The translations under genes were made by a program, and so were the position numbers. 53,708 nucleotides of DNA from an uncultured Synechococcaceae cyanobacterium (GTDB lineage: Bacteria; Cyanobacteriota; Cyanobacteriia; PCC-6307; Cyanobiaceae), in assembly GCA_902537395.1 (NCBI GenBank), contig CACBBE010000004.1, positions 1 through 53,708 of the forward strand. Direction: 5' to 3'. Positions 14,418 to 26,730 of the stretch are shown piece by piece (position 1 is the first letter of the stretch; each line of letters starts with the position of its first letter). Under the pieces are notes generated by a model. That model ran no database searches. It worked only from the letters and a program-made list of their open reading frames with translations, and had not been told where the DNA came from.

Positions 14418-14876
14418 TTATATTTTTTCTAGTAGTATTTTTGCAATATCATTTCTGACAGGTAATATAGATAACCTATTTCCTTTTTTTACGACTAATA
14501 ACTCATCCTCATTAAATAAATTCTTTAATTCAGGTAGACTTAAAATCTTATCTGATTTAAATTTATATTTTACTTTTACACAATCCCACCTCGGATTATC
14601 AGTTTTCGATTTTGGATCAAAATATTTTGAATCTTGATCAAATTGAGTAGGATCAACAATATTTAGATCTATTACCTCCATAAGTCCCACAATACCTGGG
14701 GGTTTACAATTTGAATGATAAAAAAAAACTTTATCTCCTTTTTTCATTTTCCTCATAAAATTTCGAGCCTGATAATTTCTTATTCCATCCCATAAAGTTA
14801 CACCGTCATTTTTTAAAGTATCTATGCTGTAAGCATCAGGCTCACTTTTCATTAGCCAGTAATTTATCTCAGTCAT
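14418..14876 (-). CDS. EVE-domain protein (DUF55)
   Basis: A 152-residue single EVE domain: NYWLMKSEPDAYSIDTLKND, VTLWDGIRNYQARNFMRKM, GDKVFFYHSN, then GIVGLMEVI and PRWDCVKV. EVE domains are PUA-like and bind modified bases in DNA or RNA. The first 13 codons are duplicated at 16416-16453, and the gene marks the left edge of the island. The 5' end may therefore have been rewritten by insertion; the reading frame is intact. Confidence 0.88.
   Translation of the reverse strand: MTEINYWLMKSEPDAYSIDTLKNDGVTLWDGIRNYQARNFMRKMKKGDKVFFYHSNCKPPGIVGLMEVIDLNIVDPTQFDQDSKYFDPKSKTDNPRWDCVKVKYKFKSDKILSLPELKNLFNEDELLVVKKGNRLSILPVRNDIAKILLEKI
14839..14864. repeat. Left copy of 26-bp direct repeat (att-like, in EVE 5' end)
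   Basis: The 26 bp starting GGCTCACTTTTCATTAGCC and ending AGTAATT recur identically at 16416-16441 in the same orientation. Similarity continues through the EVE start codon to 14876. The spacing between copies (1,577 bp) encloses three genes, as expected for attL/attR of a small integrated element. Confidence 0.65.
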
Positions 14877-14901: not shown

Positions 14902-14921
14902 TGCTAGAATTTTGCTAGAAT
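14902..14921. repeat. Inner repeat D, left copy
   Basis: TGCTAGAATTTTGCTAGAAT is itself two TGCTAGAAT units spaced 11 bp apart. An identical 20-mer lies at 16356-16375 and a partial copy at 29209-29226. It sits 38 bp inside the left att-like repeat. Confidence 0.65.
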
Positions 14922-14995: not shown

Positions 14996-15643
14996 TTACT
15001 CCTCTTTTTTTATTATTAATTTTTTCTGATCAACGTAAGGAATATATTTTGCACAATTATTCAACATATTTACATCCCCGTATCTACCTCCTGTTTCTGT
15101 CCATTTAACAATAGCTTTTTCCTCAGAATATGTTCCCTCAAGGAATCTATAACAAACGGCTTCTCTATCAGGTAGATACCACCAATGACCTATAAATATG
15201 GATATTCCGTAAACAATAATTATAAATCCACTGGCAAAAGGTCTTATTTTAAATAAGTTTCCCCCTTCACTAAATTTAAGAAATTTATCTTCTATTTTTA
15301 ATAAAGGTTTTGCAGTAAGGAATGCCAACCCAAATGAAATTAGGCTTGTTATTAGAAAAGCCAGCAAAAAAGACAGCAGTGAAACTATACCATTATCAAT
15401 TTCGCTATATCTCTTTCCATCATTAAATAGACGAATTAATTCTGGTACGGGAGCAATCCATAACCAAAAATAAAATAATGCCCAAATACCTTTAAGTAAT
15501 AGTATTAAGCCCGCTACTAAACCATTAAAAAAAGGCGGTAAGGTAAAAGTTTTCTTCTCGAGAGAAGGATTAAATAACTTCAGTAGATAAGTTATAAAAA
15601 AACTTCCAAAAACTATCAGATAAAAAATTATATAGTCCTTCAT
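14996..15643 (-). CDS. Polytopic membrane protein, unknown
   Basis: A 215-residue protein with about four or five hydrophobic segments (roughly 1-20, 38-65, 85-110 and 135-155). A C-terminal domain follows with two cysteines, the first in REAVCYRFLEG and the second in MLNNCAKYIPYVD, possibly a periplasmic disulfide. No family recognised. It overlaps the upstream gene by 4 bp (ATGA), the last of three coupled minus-strand genes inside the repeat-bounded block. Confidence 0.65.
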   Translation of the reverse strand: MKDYIIFYLIVFGSFFITYLLKLFNPSLEKKTFTLPPFFNGLVAGLILLLKGIWALFYFWLWIAPVPELIRLFNDGKRYSEIDNGIVSLLSFLLAFLITSLISFGLAFLTAKPLLKIEDKFLKFSEGGNLFKIRPFASGFIIIVYGISIFIGHWWYLPDREAVCYRFLEGTYSEEKAIVKWTETGGRYGDVNMLNNCAKYIPYVDQKKLIIKKEE

Positions 15644-16355: not shown

Positions 16356-16375
16356 TGCTAGAATTTTGCTAGAAT
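16356..16375. repeat. Inner repeat D, right copy
   Basis: Identical to the 20-mer at 14902-14921 and in the same orientation, lying 41 bp inside the right att-like repeat. The near-symmetrical inner position suggests arm-type recombinase sites. Confidence 0.65.
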
Positions 16376-16415: not shown

Positions 16416-16453
16416 GGCTCACTTTTCATTAGCCAGTAATTAACGTCAGTCAT
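16416..16453 (-). pseudogene. Remnant of EVE gene 5' end (right att-like repeat)
   Basis: Read on the minus strand it encodes MTDVNYWLMKSEP and then hits a stop, versus MTEINYWLMKSEP in the intact gene. The inner 26 bp (16416-16441) are identical to 14839-14864, but the start-proximal bases differ at several positions. The two copies therefore look like different alleles rather than a recent simple duplication. Confidence 0.65.
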
Positions 16454-16479
16454 TTCAATGTGTTATGAGAAAGTTACAA

Positions 16480-16693
16480 TGTGTGAACGATGTGTGAACA
16501 GAGTGCATATTTAGTCTTCTCTGCAAACGTTCAAATCATCGATTTATTTAATCTAATTTACCGTAAAAAAATATAGAAACAGATCGCTGGTTACAGATCT
16601 TTTTTTCTCTATTTATTGGAGCCAAATAAAATCCTAGTTATAGCTTGATTCTTGAACTTACTGTTCACACAGAATTGATTATCTGTTCACATA
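16480..16693. repeat. Helically phased TGTGTGAAC repeats
   Basis: TGTGTGAAC occurs at 16480-16488 and 16491-16499 (11 bp apart). Its inverse GTTCACACA lies at 16663-16671, and GTTCACATA at 16685-16693 (22 bp apart). Direct pairs facing an inverted pair, at one and two helical turns, suggest binding sites for a recombinase, replication initiator or repressor. Confidence 0.55.
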
Positions 16694-16757
16694 TGGGTTA
16701 TAAATTAAAGCTATTACTAGGTTTTGTGCTCTCTCTAAAGAACTACGCACCAGATCC

Positions 16758-16988
16758 TCAAGCTGCTTCTGGAGCAAATATTCGATTATCTTTCCTCCAG
16801 CAACTACAGCCCTTAACTAAATGATCTCCTTGTGGAATAAGCCTCTGGTGAAAGGGACAAGTCAAGATAGTTACACATTGATCTGTCATGCTGTAGCGAA
16901 AGTGAGTGCAAGTAATGCAAATCTTTGTGCGTTTGCTTTTTAGCTCTCCGTGATAATCGAAGTATTCCCATTCCTGCCAGTCCTCCAT
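16758..16988 (-). CDS. Cysteine-rich small protein, probable zinc binding
   Basis: A 76-residue soluble protein with CITCTHF, DQCVTILTCPFHQ and KGCSCW motifs, at least seven cysteines plus histidines, which could bind one or two zinc ions. I recall similar hypothetical proteins in picocyanobacteria but know no function. It begins the minus-strand side of the island proper. Confidence 0.65.
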   Translation of the reverse strand: MEDWQEWEYFDYHGELKSKRTKICITCTHFRYSMTDQCVTILTCPFHQRLIPQGDHLVKGCSCWRKDNRIFAPEAA

Positions 16989-17049: not shown

Positions 17050-17364
17050 TTATTTGCTGGTTAGTAAAATTTCTCTTGCTTTATGCCATCTTTTCTCGAA
17101 GGAATCTTTGCTTACTTCTATCTGATTGCCATACTTATCTACACCGCTGTAGTAAGAGCCTAGAACGTACTCTGCAAAGGGTTTAAGAGCTTTTGTACTC
17201 TTTGATTTAAGAAGCTTTGTGAACGCTTCCATCGACCTCTCAAGCTTGTCTCCCTTAAGGTTTTGTATCCATAATGAACCTTGATGATGATAGAGAAGAA
17301 CCTTCACTACCTCTTCATAGGAAAGCCAAGGATGAGCATCCTTAATTTGTTGTGTTCTGTCCAT
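17050..17364 (-). CDS. Hypothetical soluble protein, 104 aa
   Basis: A 104-residue protein, MDRTQQIKDAHPWLSYEEVV to KAREILLTSK, mostly helical and basic, without membrane segments or signal peptide. No family recognised. It is isolated: 61 bp to the Cys-rich gene downstream and 226 bp upstream to the next gene. The upstream gap (17365-17590) is relatively G-rich around 17410-17445 and holds nothing I can name. Confidence 0.6.
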   Translation of the reverse strand: MDRTQQIKDAHPWLSYEEVVKVLLYHHQGSLWIQNLKGDKLERSMEAFTKLLKSKSTKALKPFAEYVLGSYYSGVDKYGNQIEVSKDSFEKRWHKAREILLTSK

Positions 17365-19400: not shown

Positions 19401-19542
19401 TAAAAAGGAGCTAATTAACAGGCATGATAGTTATAATTTCTAATCCAATCAATAATCTATTAATGACTATTGATTTAAAGGATATATACTCTTACTCTCC
19501 TCCTCCTAACTCTACTAATAATATGTATATCACTTATTTAAA

Positions 19543-19601
19543 TAGTTAAAGTAGTTAGTGGTAGTAGTTAGAAGTGATATCAAAAAGTGATATCCAGCTA
19601 A
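19543..19601. repeat. Direct repeat A (second copy 19688-19745)
   Basis: The two copies differ by one indel and one substitution. Each carries GTTAGTGGTAGTA followed by AGTGATATC, AAAA and AGTGATATC, so each contains two AGTGATATC boxes, and ends CCAGCTAA. The copies start 145 bp apart. Confidence 0.75.
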
Positions 19602-19687
19602 CAGTACTTTAAAGGGAGATTCCATTCTCCTTCCCCCTATTAGAGTGTGCTCGAGTTAAACCGAGTTATAGTAATACTTTTTATGTC

Positions 19688-19745
19688 TAGTTAAAGAGTT
19701 AGTGGTAGTACTTAGAAGTGATATCAAAAAGTGATATCCAGCTAA
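19688..19745. repeat. Direct repeat A, second copy
   Basis: 58-bp match to 19543-19601. The doubled AGTGATATC boxes are fully conserved, as expected for protein-binding sites. Confidence 0.75.
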
Positions 19746-19790
19746 GCTTGTTGTATTAAATGAGACTTGTTGTATTTATAATCTTCCCTC

Positions 19791-19880
19791 TATTAGCCCG
19801 TGATTACTCTCCCCTTATTAACCCGCCATTACTCTCCCCTAACAGCCCATGCTTGCTCTCTTATAAGCCAGTGATGAAGA
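19791..19880. repeat. Degenerate 25-bp tandem repeat
   Basis: Units TATTAGCCCGTGATTACTCT+CCCCT (19791-19815) and TATTAACCCGCCATTACTCT+CCCCT (19816-19840) share 22 of 25 bp. Two shorter decayed units follow (AACAGCCCATGCTTGCTCTC; TATAAGCCAGTGATG). A direct repeat CTTGTTGTATT precedes them at 19747 and 19766. Confidence 0.65.
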
Positions 19881-23933: not shown

Positions 23934-24185
23934 TTATTCGTCAAAGAGGCTGATAGTCTCGGGATTGCCTTTCTTCGAACCGAACTCAATATCGGTTAAT
24001 TCCTTAGTCCTCTTCCTTATGTCTATTCGTTCATAAGTCTGCATGATTGTGGCTACCGAGTTACCACATATTCGAGCTAATAAATAAGCATCAGTACCTC
24101 TCAAGATATGATTCTCGATAAATGTTGAACGCATCGAATATAAGGTATATGGACGATATAAAGAGACTTTATAAATTTTTGTCAA
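23934..24185 (-). pseudogene. Truncated tyrosine recombinase (C-terminal fragment)
   Basis: 83 residues covering only the catalytic C-terminus. LYSMRSTFIENHILRGTDAY keeps the box II arginine (RSTF), ARICGNSVATIMQTYERIDI keeps the G-(N for H)-S and the catalytic tyrosine (TYERI). Intact enzymes have about 300-400 residues; the N-terminal and core-binding domains and the first catalytic Arg are missing. The TTG start is arbitrary. It resembles integrases of Prochlorococcus integrative elements. Confidence 0.7.
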
Positions 24186-24250
24186 ATTATCAGCTACTCA
24201 CACTTGGGCTTTTTATGTAACATAATAAGTTTACATAAAGTAACAATTAA

Positions 24251-24445
24251 ATGAAAAGACTTTTCCCTTATATTGCCTTTGCATGTTTAACTGGTTTTAC
24301 GGCTACAACCGGTTTACCTGTTATTGCCGGCGGTTGTAGTAGCCACATGAACAAAAAAGCCGAAATCAAATGCGCTGAAGATGATACTGAGTGTCAAATT
24401 GAAAAAGCCGAAAAGTTTGATTTAAGAGATTCACTCAAGTCATAA
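24251..24445 (+). CDS. Small secreted/lipoprotein-like protein, 64 aa
   Basis: Signal peptide MKRLFPYIAFACLTGFTATT followed by VIAGGCSSHMNKK. The GGC could be an atypical lipobox or the start of a disulfide-rich mature peptide with KCAEDDTECQIEK. The mature part is about 35 residues and acidic. The start is followed by a 34-codon membrane peptide gene 4 bp after its stop. Function unknown. Confidence 0.65.
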   Translation: MKRLFPYIAFACLTGFTATTGLPVIAGGCSSHMNKKAEIKCAEDDTECQIEKAEKFDLRDSLKS

Positions 24446-24449
24446 ACTT

Positions 24450-24554
24450 ATGACTCAAATCAGTTTTTTTATGAACTCTGCCCCAAGAGATTTAATTGAG
24501 TTCGTATTGTTCTCTGCTATTGGCTTTACTGCTGGATTATTGGGATTAATTTAG
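24450..24554 (+). CDS. Small membrane peptide, 34 aa
   Basis: MTQISFFMNSAPRDLIEFVL, then FSAIGFTAGLLGLI: one C-terminal transmembrane helix with Gly-rich face. It begins 4 bp after the previous stop and is probably co-translated. No family recognised; the size is typical of accessory subunits of photosynthetic complexes, but that is only analogy. Confidence 0.5.
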   Translation: MTQISFFMNSAPRDLIEFVLFSAIGFTAGLLGLI

Positions 24555-24564
24555 GTATAGAAAA

Positions 24565-24657
24565 TTGGCTCATTCTTTTTTTCTCTTAACCTTTTCAAGT
24601 CTTTCTTTCTTTTATGTGATGGCTTGCTTATGGAGAGATTTAATTAATCAAAAGTAA
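24565..24657 (+). CDS. Possible membrane peptide, 30 aa (TTG start)
   Basis: From TTG the frame reads MAHSFFLLTFSSLSFFYVMA then CLWRDLINQK, one hydrophobic helix. It lies 10 bp after the preceding small gene. No ribosome-binding site is clear, so it may be chance in AT-rich DNA. Confidence 0.3.
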   Translation: MAHSFFLLTFSSLSFFYVMACLWRDLINQK

Positions 24658-24672
24658 AAATTTTTTTTTAAA

Positions 24673-24915
24673 TTACCTTTTATAGATAAATTTTTGTATG
24701 TCTTCGAATAGATTAGATTTTGATTTAAAAAATCCATTACTTTTTAAATAAGATTTTCCTTTTTCTATATTTTCAATTCTTTTTTCATAAGAATTTTCAT
24801 CGTAATTTTTTTGCATTAAAAAAATAGTCGGACTCTTATTCTGAATAATGCTGACAAAAAAGCGGTTACCTTTAATACAAAATTTAAATTCTTTTATGAA
24901 TTGCTTCTCATTCAA
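24673..24915 (-). CDS. Hypothetical protein, 80 aa
   Basis: MNEKQFIKEFKFCIKGNRFF to DIQKFIYKR. Lysine-rich soluble protein with a short beta-like N-terminal region (FCIKGNRFFVSIIQN) and a helical C-terminus. No family known to me. It is the second of two minus-strand genes, 38 bp after the 45-residue gene at 24953. Confidence 0.5.
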   Translation of the reverse strand: MNEKQFIKEFKFCIKGNRFFVSIIQNKSPTIFLMQKNYDENSYEKRIENIEKGKSYLKSNGFFKSKSNLFEDIQKFIYKR

Positions 24916-24952
24916 ACTTAAGATCTAATAAAAAAGAGTCTTTCTTAAATTT

Positions 24953-25090
24953 CTAAGAATGTTTTGATATTTTGTTCTTCATGTCCTCAATAATATTAAT
25001 TAATTTGTCTAACCATTCTGTATTATCTTCTGGTTTTAAATATGTAATTTTTGGTTGATTAATTTCAAGAGTCTCAAAATCTCCACTCAT
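24953..25090 (-). CDS. Small protein, 45 aa
   Basis: MSGDFETLEINQPKITYLKP to KISKHS. A clear ribosome-binding site AAAAGGAG lies 7 bp before the ATG, and element Q lies about 80 bp upstream. Soluble, acidic N-terminus and helical C-terminus. Unknown function. Confidence 0.6.
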   Translation of the reverse strand: MSGDFETLEINQPKITYLKPEDNTEWLDKLINIIEDMKNKISKHS

Positions 25091-25167
25091 AAATTCTCCT
25101 TTTATATTTGTATAACTACTTATTTGTTCTAATTGATTTGACTAAAACACTGCGTATCTAATGTGTG

Positions 25168-25202
25168 CGGTTTGAGGAACATTTAGGTACGGAAAGAGGT
25201 AT
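25168..25202 (-). promoter_or_regulatory. Recurrent element Q, copy 2
   Basis: On the minus strand ATACCTCTTTCCGTACCTAA, ATGTTCCTCAAACCG, then CACACAT. It matches copy 1 at 33 of 35 positions and extends to CACACAT like copy 3. It lies upstream of the 45-residue gene at 25090. Confidence 0.5.
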
Positions 25203-25317
25203 GTTTTTTTTTGTCATTTAAATCTTTGGCTGACCTAAATTAGAAATATGGTTGTCATAAGTCAGTTGCGTTGCTACAACTTAAATCAACCATAAACTTT
25301 AAATTGCATTTAATAAA

Positions 25318-25500
25318 ATGACTTACTACAGTTGCTTTGATCAAAAAGGAAACATAATTGCTCGCTGTCAGACTAAAGAAGATATAAATGTTCTTAAGAA
25401 AATGGGCAGACCAATAATGGAAATAAAAGAAATGAAAAAAGAGGAATCAGTTGTTTGTTCTCTAACTGGTAGTCCATCCGATTACAACGACGATTATTAA
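25318..25500 (+). CDS. Small protein, 60 aa
   Basis: MTYYSCFDQKGNIIARCQTK to SPSDYNDDY. A compact soluble N-terminal unit (YYSCFDQKGNIIARC) followed by a basic helix and an acidic tail. Similar orphan proteins occur in Prochlorococcus as I remember them; no function. It is followed by the pseudogene remnant at 25524. Confidence 0.6.
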   Translation: MTYYSCFDQKGNIIARCQTKEDINVLKKMGRPIMEIKEMKKEESVVCSLTGSPSDYNDDY

Positions 25501-25523
25501 GAGTATGACTCAATGTTGGATGG

Positions 25524-25752
25524 ATGTTTTTAAAAGTAAATGTTTGGAAAAAATCAGGAATTCCTTTTGCTATTACTGATGGCTTAACTGTTTATGCCCC
25601 AGATTCTCAAAAAAAGTTTTTTAGATGATCTTATTCTTGACCATTATCAAGATTTAACGGGAGGAGGATTTTTAATAAGTGCTTCAAAAGGTGCTACAAA
25701 AAGTTCATGTGGATCAGGTTTTAAATTTATAAAATATCAGTTGCAATTTTAA
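25524..25752 (+). pseudogene. HesB/IscA-like (A-type Fe-S carrier) remnant with frameshift
   Basis: Frame 1 reads MFLKVNVWKKSGIPFAITDG, LTVYAPDSQKKF, then shifts by one base within a A7/G/T6 homopolymer run near 25611-25625. It continues LDDLILDHYQDLTGGGFLIS and SCGSGFKF. This order (DG-x-V, S-x5-L, LD-x2-Q-x-L-x-G-GF, SCGxGF) matches A-type iron-sulfur carriers. The N-terminal third is absent and of the three conserved cysteines only one remains, so it is probably dead. Confidence 0.55.
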
Positions 25753-25778
25753 TATGGTGCAAGTAATAAGTTTTTAAT

Positions 25779-25964
25779 TTATTCCCAAGTTTTCATATCA
25801 GAGAAGTCGCTCGCTATTGCATGAAGCATCCCTCCTACAAATGACCTTGGACAACCAAGTTTGTTAACTAAAACTTCTGATTGTTTTTTGATATCTTCCC
25901 ATGTAGGTCTGATATCCTCATTTATTTGTTTAAGACTAGGTTTAAATTCTTCAGAATCACTCAT
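25779..25964 (-). CDS. Small protein with 3' end shared with SnoaL-like gene, 61 aa
   Basis: MSDSEEFKPSLKQINEDIRP to FSDMKTWE, soluble. The middle (WEDIKKQSEVLVNKLGCPRS) is helical. The last seven codons and downstream bases (25777-25801) are identical over 25 bp to the end of the SnoaL-like gene at 19017, although the proteins are otherwise unrelated, so the 3' end was probably acquired by recombination. Confidence 0.55.
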   Translation of the reverse strand: MSDSEEFKPSLKQINEDIRPTWEDIKKQSEVLVNKLGCPRSFVGGMLHAIASDFSDMKTWE

Positions 25965-25990
25965 ATAAAAATGTATTAACTTATTAAAAA

Positions 25991-26146
25991 TTACAAAATA
26001 AATTCTTTTGAAATTATTCTAAGCTGATTTAAATTCAGATTATTTAAATAATTATTTGCAATCAATTTTTCCTCATTAATTTCGAGATCTTTAATCTCAG
26101 AAATAATGCTATTAGATATTAAATCAATTAAATGTTCTTTATCCAT
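25991..26146 (-). CDS. 51-aa small protein (paralogue of 46551-46706)
   Basis: MDKEHLIDLISNSIISEIKD to LNLNQLRIISKEFIL. The distant gene at 46551-46706 has exactly the same length and conserves MDK-HLIDLISNS, LNL-QLR and SKEFIL. Conservation at the protein level supports both as genuine. Soluble helical protein, function unknown. It lies 27 bp upstream of the 61-residue gene. Confidence 0.7.
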   Translation of the reverse strand: MDKEHLIDLISNSIISEIKDLEINEEKLIANNYLNNLNLNQLRIISKEFIL

Positions 26147-26730
26147 TACTTATATATAAACCTAAAACAAACATTAATTATTTAAAGTCTTCAACTCAAC
26201 ATATAAGTAAAAATACTTAGATAAATAGAAAACTCATAGGTTAGTTAAATCACTTTAATAGTTTGAAATTCCAAGGCAGTTTTAATAACATCAATATCAT
26301 ACATTTTGGTAGAAATAAACCTAATGAGTTTTAATTCTAAAAACCTATTCGTTTTTGGCAATCAATATCTAAAAAGCAAATCACCACTATTAACGTTTGT
26401 CCATTTCTCTTTCATTTGTTTTAAGTAAAAATTTTTGCCGAAAAAAAGAGGTTTTATTCCTCTAAGTTTAAATCTACTTTCAATGTAAATTTTCCTTATT
26501 CAGTTTTATAAATTAAATCTTAAATTAAGTAGAGAAACTTATATAGGAGTTGTTTATGTATAAGTTATATAAATCAAATTAAGTAGTCTTTTTTACCAAT
26601 TAAATGTACCTGTTGCTAAATACATATATTTGTCCCTGAAATGCCTCTAAAAACCTCTTTTTCTTGAAATAAAGATTGACAAGACATTCATAAAAAAAAC
26701 TTTTATAAAACATTAACTTCTTTTATAAAT
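26147..26730. other. Intergenic region with decayed element P (copy 4)
   Basis: No convincing gene over 584 bp. At 26441-26485 the minus strand carries a diverged element P: CATTGAAAGTAGATTTAAAC, hairpin GAGG-AATAAAA-CCTC and T7. Otherwise AT-rich sequence with nothing recognisable. Confidence 0.5.
26441..26485 (-). promoter_or_regulatory. Leader/terminator element P, copy 4 (diverged)
   Basis: The hairpin and T7 tract are kept and the TAAACTTAGAGG junction matches copy 3. The GATTGACAG box has decayed to CATTGAAAG. No gene starts directly downstream; an 18-codon frame begins about 30 bp further. Confidence 0.45.

Follow-up and report, generated by a model that had tools for sequence, protein, structure and literature searches.

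What binds four short repeats beside an att-like repeat in the genome of an uncultured Synechococcaceae cyanobacterium is the question raised by this locus, which lies in a stretch of 53,708 nucleotides that was analysed as a whole and is referred to here as the window. Exact TGTGTGAAC is found at 16480-16488 and 16491-16499 on the plus strand and at 16663-16671 on the minus strand; the fourth site, TATGTGAAC at 16685-16693 (minus strand), differs from it by a single mismatch. The sites of the direct pair are 11 bp apart and those of the inverted pair 22 bp apart (start to start), and 163 bp separate the two pairs. The four-site array described in the earlier note is present, with one imperfect site. 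No earlier description of it was found in the open-access literature searched.

The earlier note had proposed to judge the array by the genome-wide frequency of the motif and by the conservation of its spacing, and both speak for it. Exact TGTGTGAAC occurs four times in the whole assembly of 1,067,473 bases, three of them at this locus. With exact half-sites, the 11-bp pair (TGTGAAC-N4-TGTGAAC) is present in 24 of 121 genomes of the same genus and the 22-bp pair in five, while 400 genomes of the family yielded 51 matches to the 11-bp pair in 43 genomes; the reversed-pattern controls gave none. The proposed one- and two-turn phasing holds inside the pairs, where 11 and 22 bp are fixed, but not for the gap between them, which lacks helical phase and varies from 192 to 211 bp (start to start) inside one sequence type, that of the window, named type A. 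Phased looping over a fixed distance of about 165 bp is therefore unsupported, and bending is favoured over a rigid loop. Inverted arms, CCTAGTTATAGCTT and AAGCTATTACTAGG (about 16634-16648 and 16704-16720, within 16629-16720), flank the 22-bp pair, for which a terminator or hairpin reading was considered; similar words are found after EVE stubs too. An Rfam search of 14-20 kb of the window returned chance matches only.

On the minus strand, ATGACTGACGTTAATTACTGGCTAATGAAAAGTGAGCC lies about 30 bp past the direct pair and represents the opening codons of an EVE-domain gene; the intact EVE gene is located 1.58 kb further on. The att-like repeat adjoining the array, which is real (repeat families D2 and D19), is therefore an EVE stub, a duplicated 5' end of this gene. 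The features concerned are as follows.

14418..14876, minus strand: intact EVE-domain gene, the integration target (PF01878, E 3.7e-53)
14848..14861, minus strand: recombination core inside the intact EVE gene
16416..16453, minus strand: EVE stub, start codon and first codons, duplicated through integration
16425..16438, minus strand: recombination core TACTGGCTAATGAA inside the stub
16480..16499, minus strand: two type A arm-type sites in direct orientation at 11-bp spacing, reading GTTCACACATCGTTCACACA on this strand
16579..16588, minus strand: AGCGATCTGT motif between the pairs, common to all arm types
16663..16693, plus strand: two arm-type sites in inverted orientation at 22-bp spacing

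Among 80 named cyanobacterial EVE loci, nearly all from Prochlorococcus, such stubs are recurrent, with up to four within 10 kb upstream of the gene; the cultured Prochlorococcus strains MIT 9314, MIT 9302 and MIT 9201 are among those that have them. Up to base 29 of EVE, locus L084 matches the uninterrupted locus L094 at 98.4% identity; a 6.4-kb insert follows, after which EVE resumes at 96%. This comparison places the target at the 5' end of EVE, with TACTGGCTAATGAA as the core. Because a further stub lies inside the insert, more than one element may be contained in it. The core is duplicated at both ends and relatives carry an uninterrupted site, as is usual for integrative elements. There are no tRNA genes in the window, and the tRNA-gene integration that defines tycheposons is not seen, the target being EVE. 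Both the DNA upstream of EVE and its first codons change with the arm type, that is, with the element, so that integration supplies the target with new upstream DNA and a new N-terminus, at the sequence level the hallmark of a 5'-end integrator. The EVE promoter and first codons would be replaced in this way, the incoming DNA presumably being active as a promoter. A near-empty mini-element in locus L102 (2201-2324) consists of two stubs at a distance of only 123 bp, with type C pairs on both sides.

Across Prochlorococcus the layout is constant, an inverted 22-bp pair facing a direct 11-bp pair beside the core, and at least nine half-site sequences fill it. The position of the GTTCACA pair is occupied in other strains by direct 11-bp pairs of CATTCACGATT, ATTCTAGCAAA, CATACCAGCAC, TGACTAGCAAA, ATCCACACCC, ATTCGAACCTC, TTATTCACACT or TTTACCCAAAC. 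When each locus was searched with its own 8-base half-site, allowing up to two mismatches, 21 loci showed the inverted pair at the 22-bp spacing; other spacings from 9 to 44 bp occurred in at most two loci each, and the direct orientation in none. The control with half-sites of other types gave three hits in 901 at up to three mismatches. The inverted pair lies about 190-235 bp outward of the direct pair (start to start) and has the same sequence: the two pairs change sequence together. The AGCGATCTGT motif between them is a candidate bend or directionality-factor site.

Direct repeats at 11 bp upstream of a start codon resemble PhoB/OmpR-type boxes, and the direct pair begins at a fixed 46 bp upstream of the EVE start codon, as might be expected if the pairs were operators for a regulator of EVE. 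Strains with the same EVE gene, however, have wholly different half-sites, and the uninterrupted EVE loci L094 and L100 lack the 11-bp pair. The same pairs also recur downstream of the stubs, at the elements' other end, and, as described below, their sequence tracks a domain of the integrase; a role as operators is very improbable.

At that other end, a second 11-bp pair lies about 60 bp past the core in most stubs. Of 50 typed neighbours, 25 have left and right ends of one type where 8.2 would be expected, a level unreached in 100,000 shuffles; because the shuffles ignore relatedness, this is to be taken as an indication and not as a probability. The half that disagrees points to exchange between elements or to sites that were missed. 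Both end types match in five complete elements (L115 and L168-L171, 5.6-12 kb), where the integrase gene starts shortly after the left pair, and the same arrangement of integrase, left pair and core is found in further genera of the family. Arm sites flank the core on both sides in the joined element ends, as in lambda-type systems. The pairs share short, phased repeats with iterons and could on that ground serve as binding sites for the replication initiator of an element with a plasmid-like form. Their position is, on the contrary, fixed relative to the recombination core, they are present at both element ends and tracked by the integrase N-domain, and the ORFs examined included no recognisable initiator gene, which leaves this reading with next to no credence. 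An element of about 2.62 kb that recurs among the loci (L060, 7398-10001) combines a left stub without a recognisable arm pair with a type A right end; its copy in L060 carries three genes on the opposite strand, and its left stub is also present in L063, L064, L082, L084, L098, L101 and L105.

Judged by its sequence, the element integrase is a divergent tyrosine-recombinase-like protein. The PF00589 profile detects 11 of 12 members weakly (best E 5.9e-5), below the cut-off for the EVE-site clade, and a full-length relative, L195, exceeds that cut-off. The box II Arg and the C-terminal Tyr are conserved (YSxRS, TYERID), and the box I Arg is replaced by Ser in every aligned EVE-site member and retained in more distant relatives. 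NCBIfam and PHROGs provided no name for the integrase or for the Cys-rich gene described below, a PDB sequence search gave nothing useful, and an AlphaFold model from a two-row alignment was unusable (mean pLDDT 36.5). Phage records gave no match by DNA search and none for the integrase protein, and neither the type A pair nor the integrase was found in viral contigs. The same assembly contains a second integrase-like open frame, distantly related and 505 aa long (G000, contig C10, 5757-6194).

In 14 integrases of known arm type, the N-terminal domains, which measure about 85 aa, are 61-100% identical within an arm type and at most 48% identical between types, so that arm sequence correlates with the N-domain, as a correlation of sequences only. 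Types F and G-prime differ in their arms and have N-domains about 43-45% identical, with catalytic domains 95-99% identical, a contrast that reads as a naturally occurring domain swap. In another genome, a truncated element (L204) encodes an N-domain 93% identical to that of L171 beside the same arm word. The array is thus very probably the P arm, made of arm-type sites, of an integrative element in the 5' end of EVE, and not a transcription operator. Of the binders suggested in the earlier note, a recombinase binding cooperatively beside an att site agrees well with sites that behave, by their sequence relations, as integrase arm-type sites at a real attachment site; neither a CRP-like repressor nor a replication initiator finds support.

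In the window the type A right end spans 16416-16693, and on its EVE side lies a second element, a type C cassette of 1.58 kb with matching ends, in which no integrase was recognised.

14902..14921, minus strand: right-end arm pair of the cassette, type C, 11-bp spacing
14996..15643, minus strand: hydrophobic, membrane-like cassette-cargo protein, 215 aa
15640..15867, minus strand: small cassette-cargo protein with a signal-peptide-like start, 75 aa
15864..16247, minus strand: T5orf172/GIY-YIG-like cassette cargo, 127 aa (PF10544, E 1.7e-9)
16356..16375, minus strand: left-end arm pair of the cassette, type C, 11-bp spacing
16758..16988, minus strand: Cys-rich protein adjoining the P arm, 76 aa
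16997..17010, minus strand: LexA-like box AGTACACTTGTACT, 22 bp upstream of the Cys-rich gene
17050..17364, minus strand: conserved element gene (MDRTQQ...), 104 aa, which the L115 element has at its right end too
23937..24170, minus strand: C-terminal integrase remnant, matching the L115 query at 95% identity over residues 395-471

The Cys-rich protein is a candidate directionality factor. At this gene 20 of 21 loci fit the LexA consensus taken from PMC3091678, and excision may be controlled through the LexA-boxed gene. The conservation of this small gene beside the array, together with the absence of the 22-bp pair from many small cassettes, would suit pairs bound by a separate directionality factor (excisionase) and not by the integrase itself. 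The Cys-rich protein is, however, nearly the same beside arrays of different types, and it is the integrase N-domain that changes with the array; an excisionase as the binder of the pairs is accordingly given very little credence.

As for the type A element, C-terminal remnants were found but no intact integrase. With the integrase truncated in the window, the array probably survives as a relic or is served by an integrase acting in trans, and it probably marks an old type A element no longer able to produce an integrase itself. Small cargo genes (MDKEHLIDLIS..., MTYYSCFD..., MKRLFPYIAF...) at 24250-26150 are fused next to the integrase remnant and recur in elements of different arm type (L058, L088, L103, L104). 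The island also contains long direct repeats (49 nt, 98%) and three 25-nt tandem repeats, at 19540-19745 and 19785-19858. Small cassettes without an integrase are stacked in tandem at the EVE site, and many of them have neither the inverted pair nor a recognised integrase. The last 25 or so integrase codons are kept in dozens of genomes, with matching DNA at the left ends of cassettes, and the small cassettes look like internal-deletion derivatives that retained their ends.

With the array taken as a P arm, the core-binding and catalytic domains of the integrase would hold TACTGGCTAATGAA, the strand-exchange core within the opening codons of EVE, while its small N-terminal domain would bridge to the direct 11-bp and inverted 22-bp pairs, the DNA between them being bent, perhaps at the conserved AGCGATCTGT. 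At the opposite element end a second 11-bp pair of the same sequence lies beside the integrase gene. Integration duplicates the core and gives EVE new upstream DNA, a start codon and first codons. Elements have the core in common and differ in their arm sequences, which exchangeable N-terminal domains would set. Whether these form a modular address system is a more tentative matter, and we consider it possible, at somewhat below even chances, that the elements compete for one core, that joint exchange of N-domain and arm pairs prevents mutual excision, and that integrase-less cassettes stack in ordered arrays, each mobilised solely by integrases of its own arm type.

With at least nine arm codes, this natural series around a single core would amount to a set of interchangeable recombination addresses, and because it includes integrases that differ in their N-domains while their catalytic domains are almost the same, the role of the arm sites becomes directly testable. 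The same holds for whether arm sites give orthogonality to elements sharing one target, and the series is a source of candidate orthogonal integrases. The EVE site is, moreover, a non-tRNA hotspot shaping the gene content of an abundant marine phototroph.

Among known systems, lambda-type tyrosine integrases act on a core with two arms, the N-terminal domain reading arm sites, several of which stand in direct and inverted order. The EVE array shares the core, the two arms and the direct and inverted arm sites; it differs in its fixed 11-bp and 22-bp pairs, in having one core with at least nine arm sequences, and in the box I Arg-to-Ser change of its integrase. In IntDOT, the tyrosine recombinase of CTnDOT, Ser likewise replaces the box I Arg, a resemblance between proteins of unrelated host and target. 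Integrons accumulate small gene cassettes in tandem at one site, as happens at EVE, where, unlike in integrons, every junction has arm pairs beside its core and some of the elements bring the integrase with them. Tycheposons of Prochlorococcus are tyrosine-recombinase islands of 4-200 kb with cargo, associated with seven tRNA genes (PMC10872708). The EVE elements resemble them in organism, recombinase type and cargo, and differ from them in targeting the 5' end of a protein gene and in the many cassettes of about 1-4 kb. No conjugation genes were recognised in the EVE-site elements listed. The SXT element at prfC and the dusA elements give their target gene new upstream DNA and a new N-terminus on integration (PMC8409611). 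The SXT/R391 ICEs and dusA elements thus do what the EVE elements appear to do, supplying upstream DNA and first codons; the EVE elements differ from them in target gene and host group, and in that a single core serves many stacked elements whose arm types differ. The array is well supported as the P arm of an integrative element that targets EVE, and the EVE elements are a new variant among the 5'-end integrative elements; their unusual part is the combination of one core with many arm codes.
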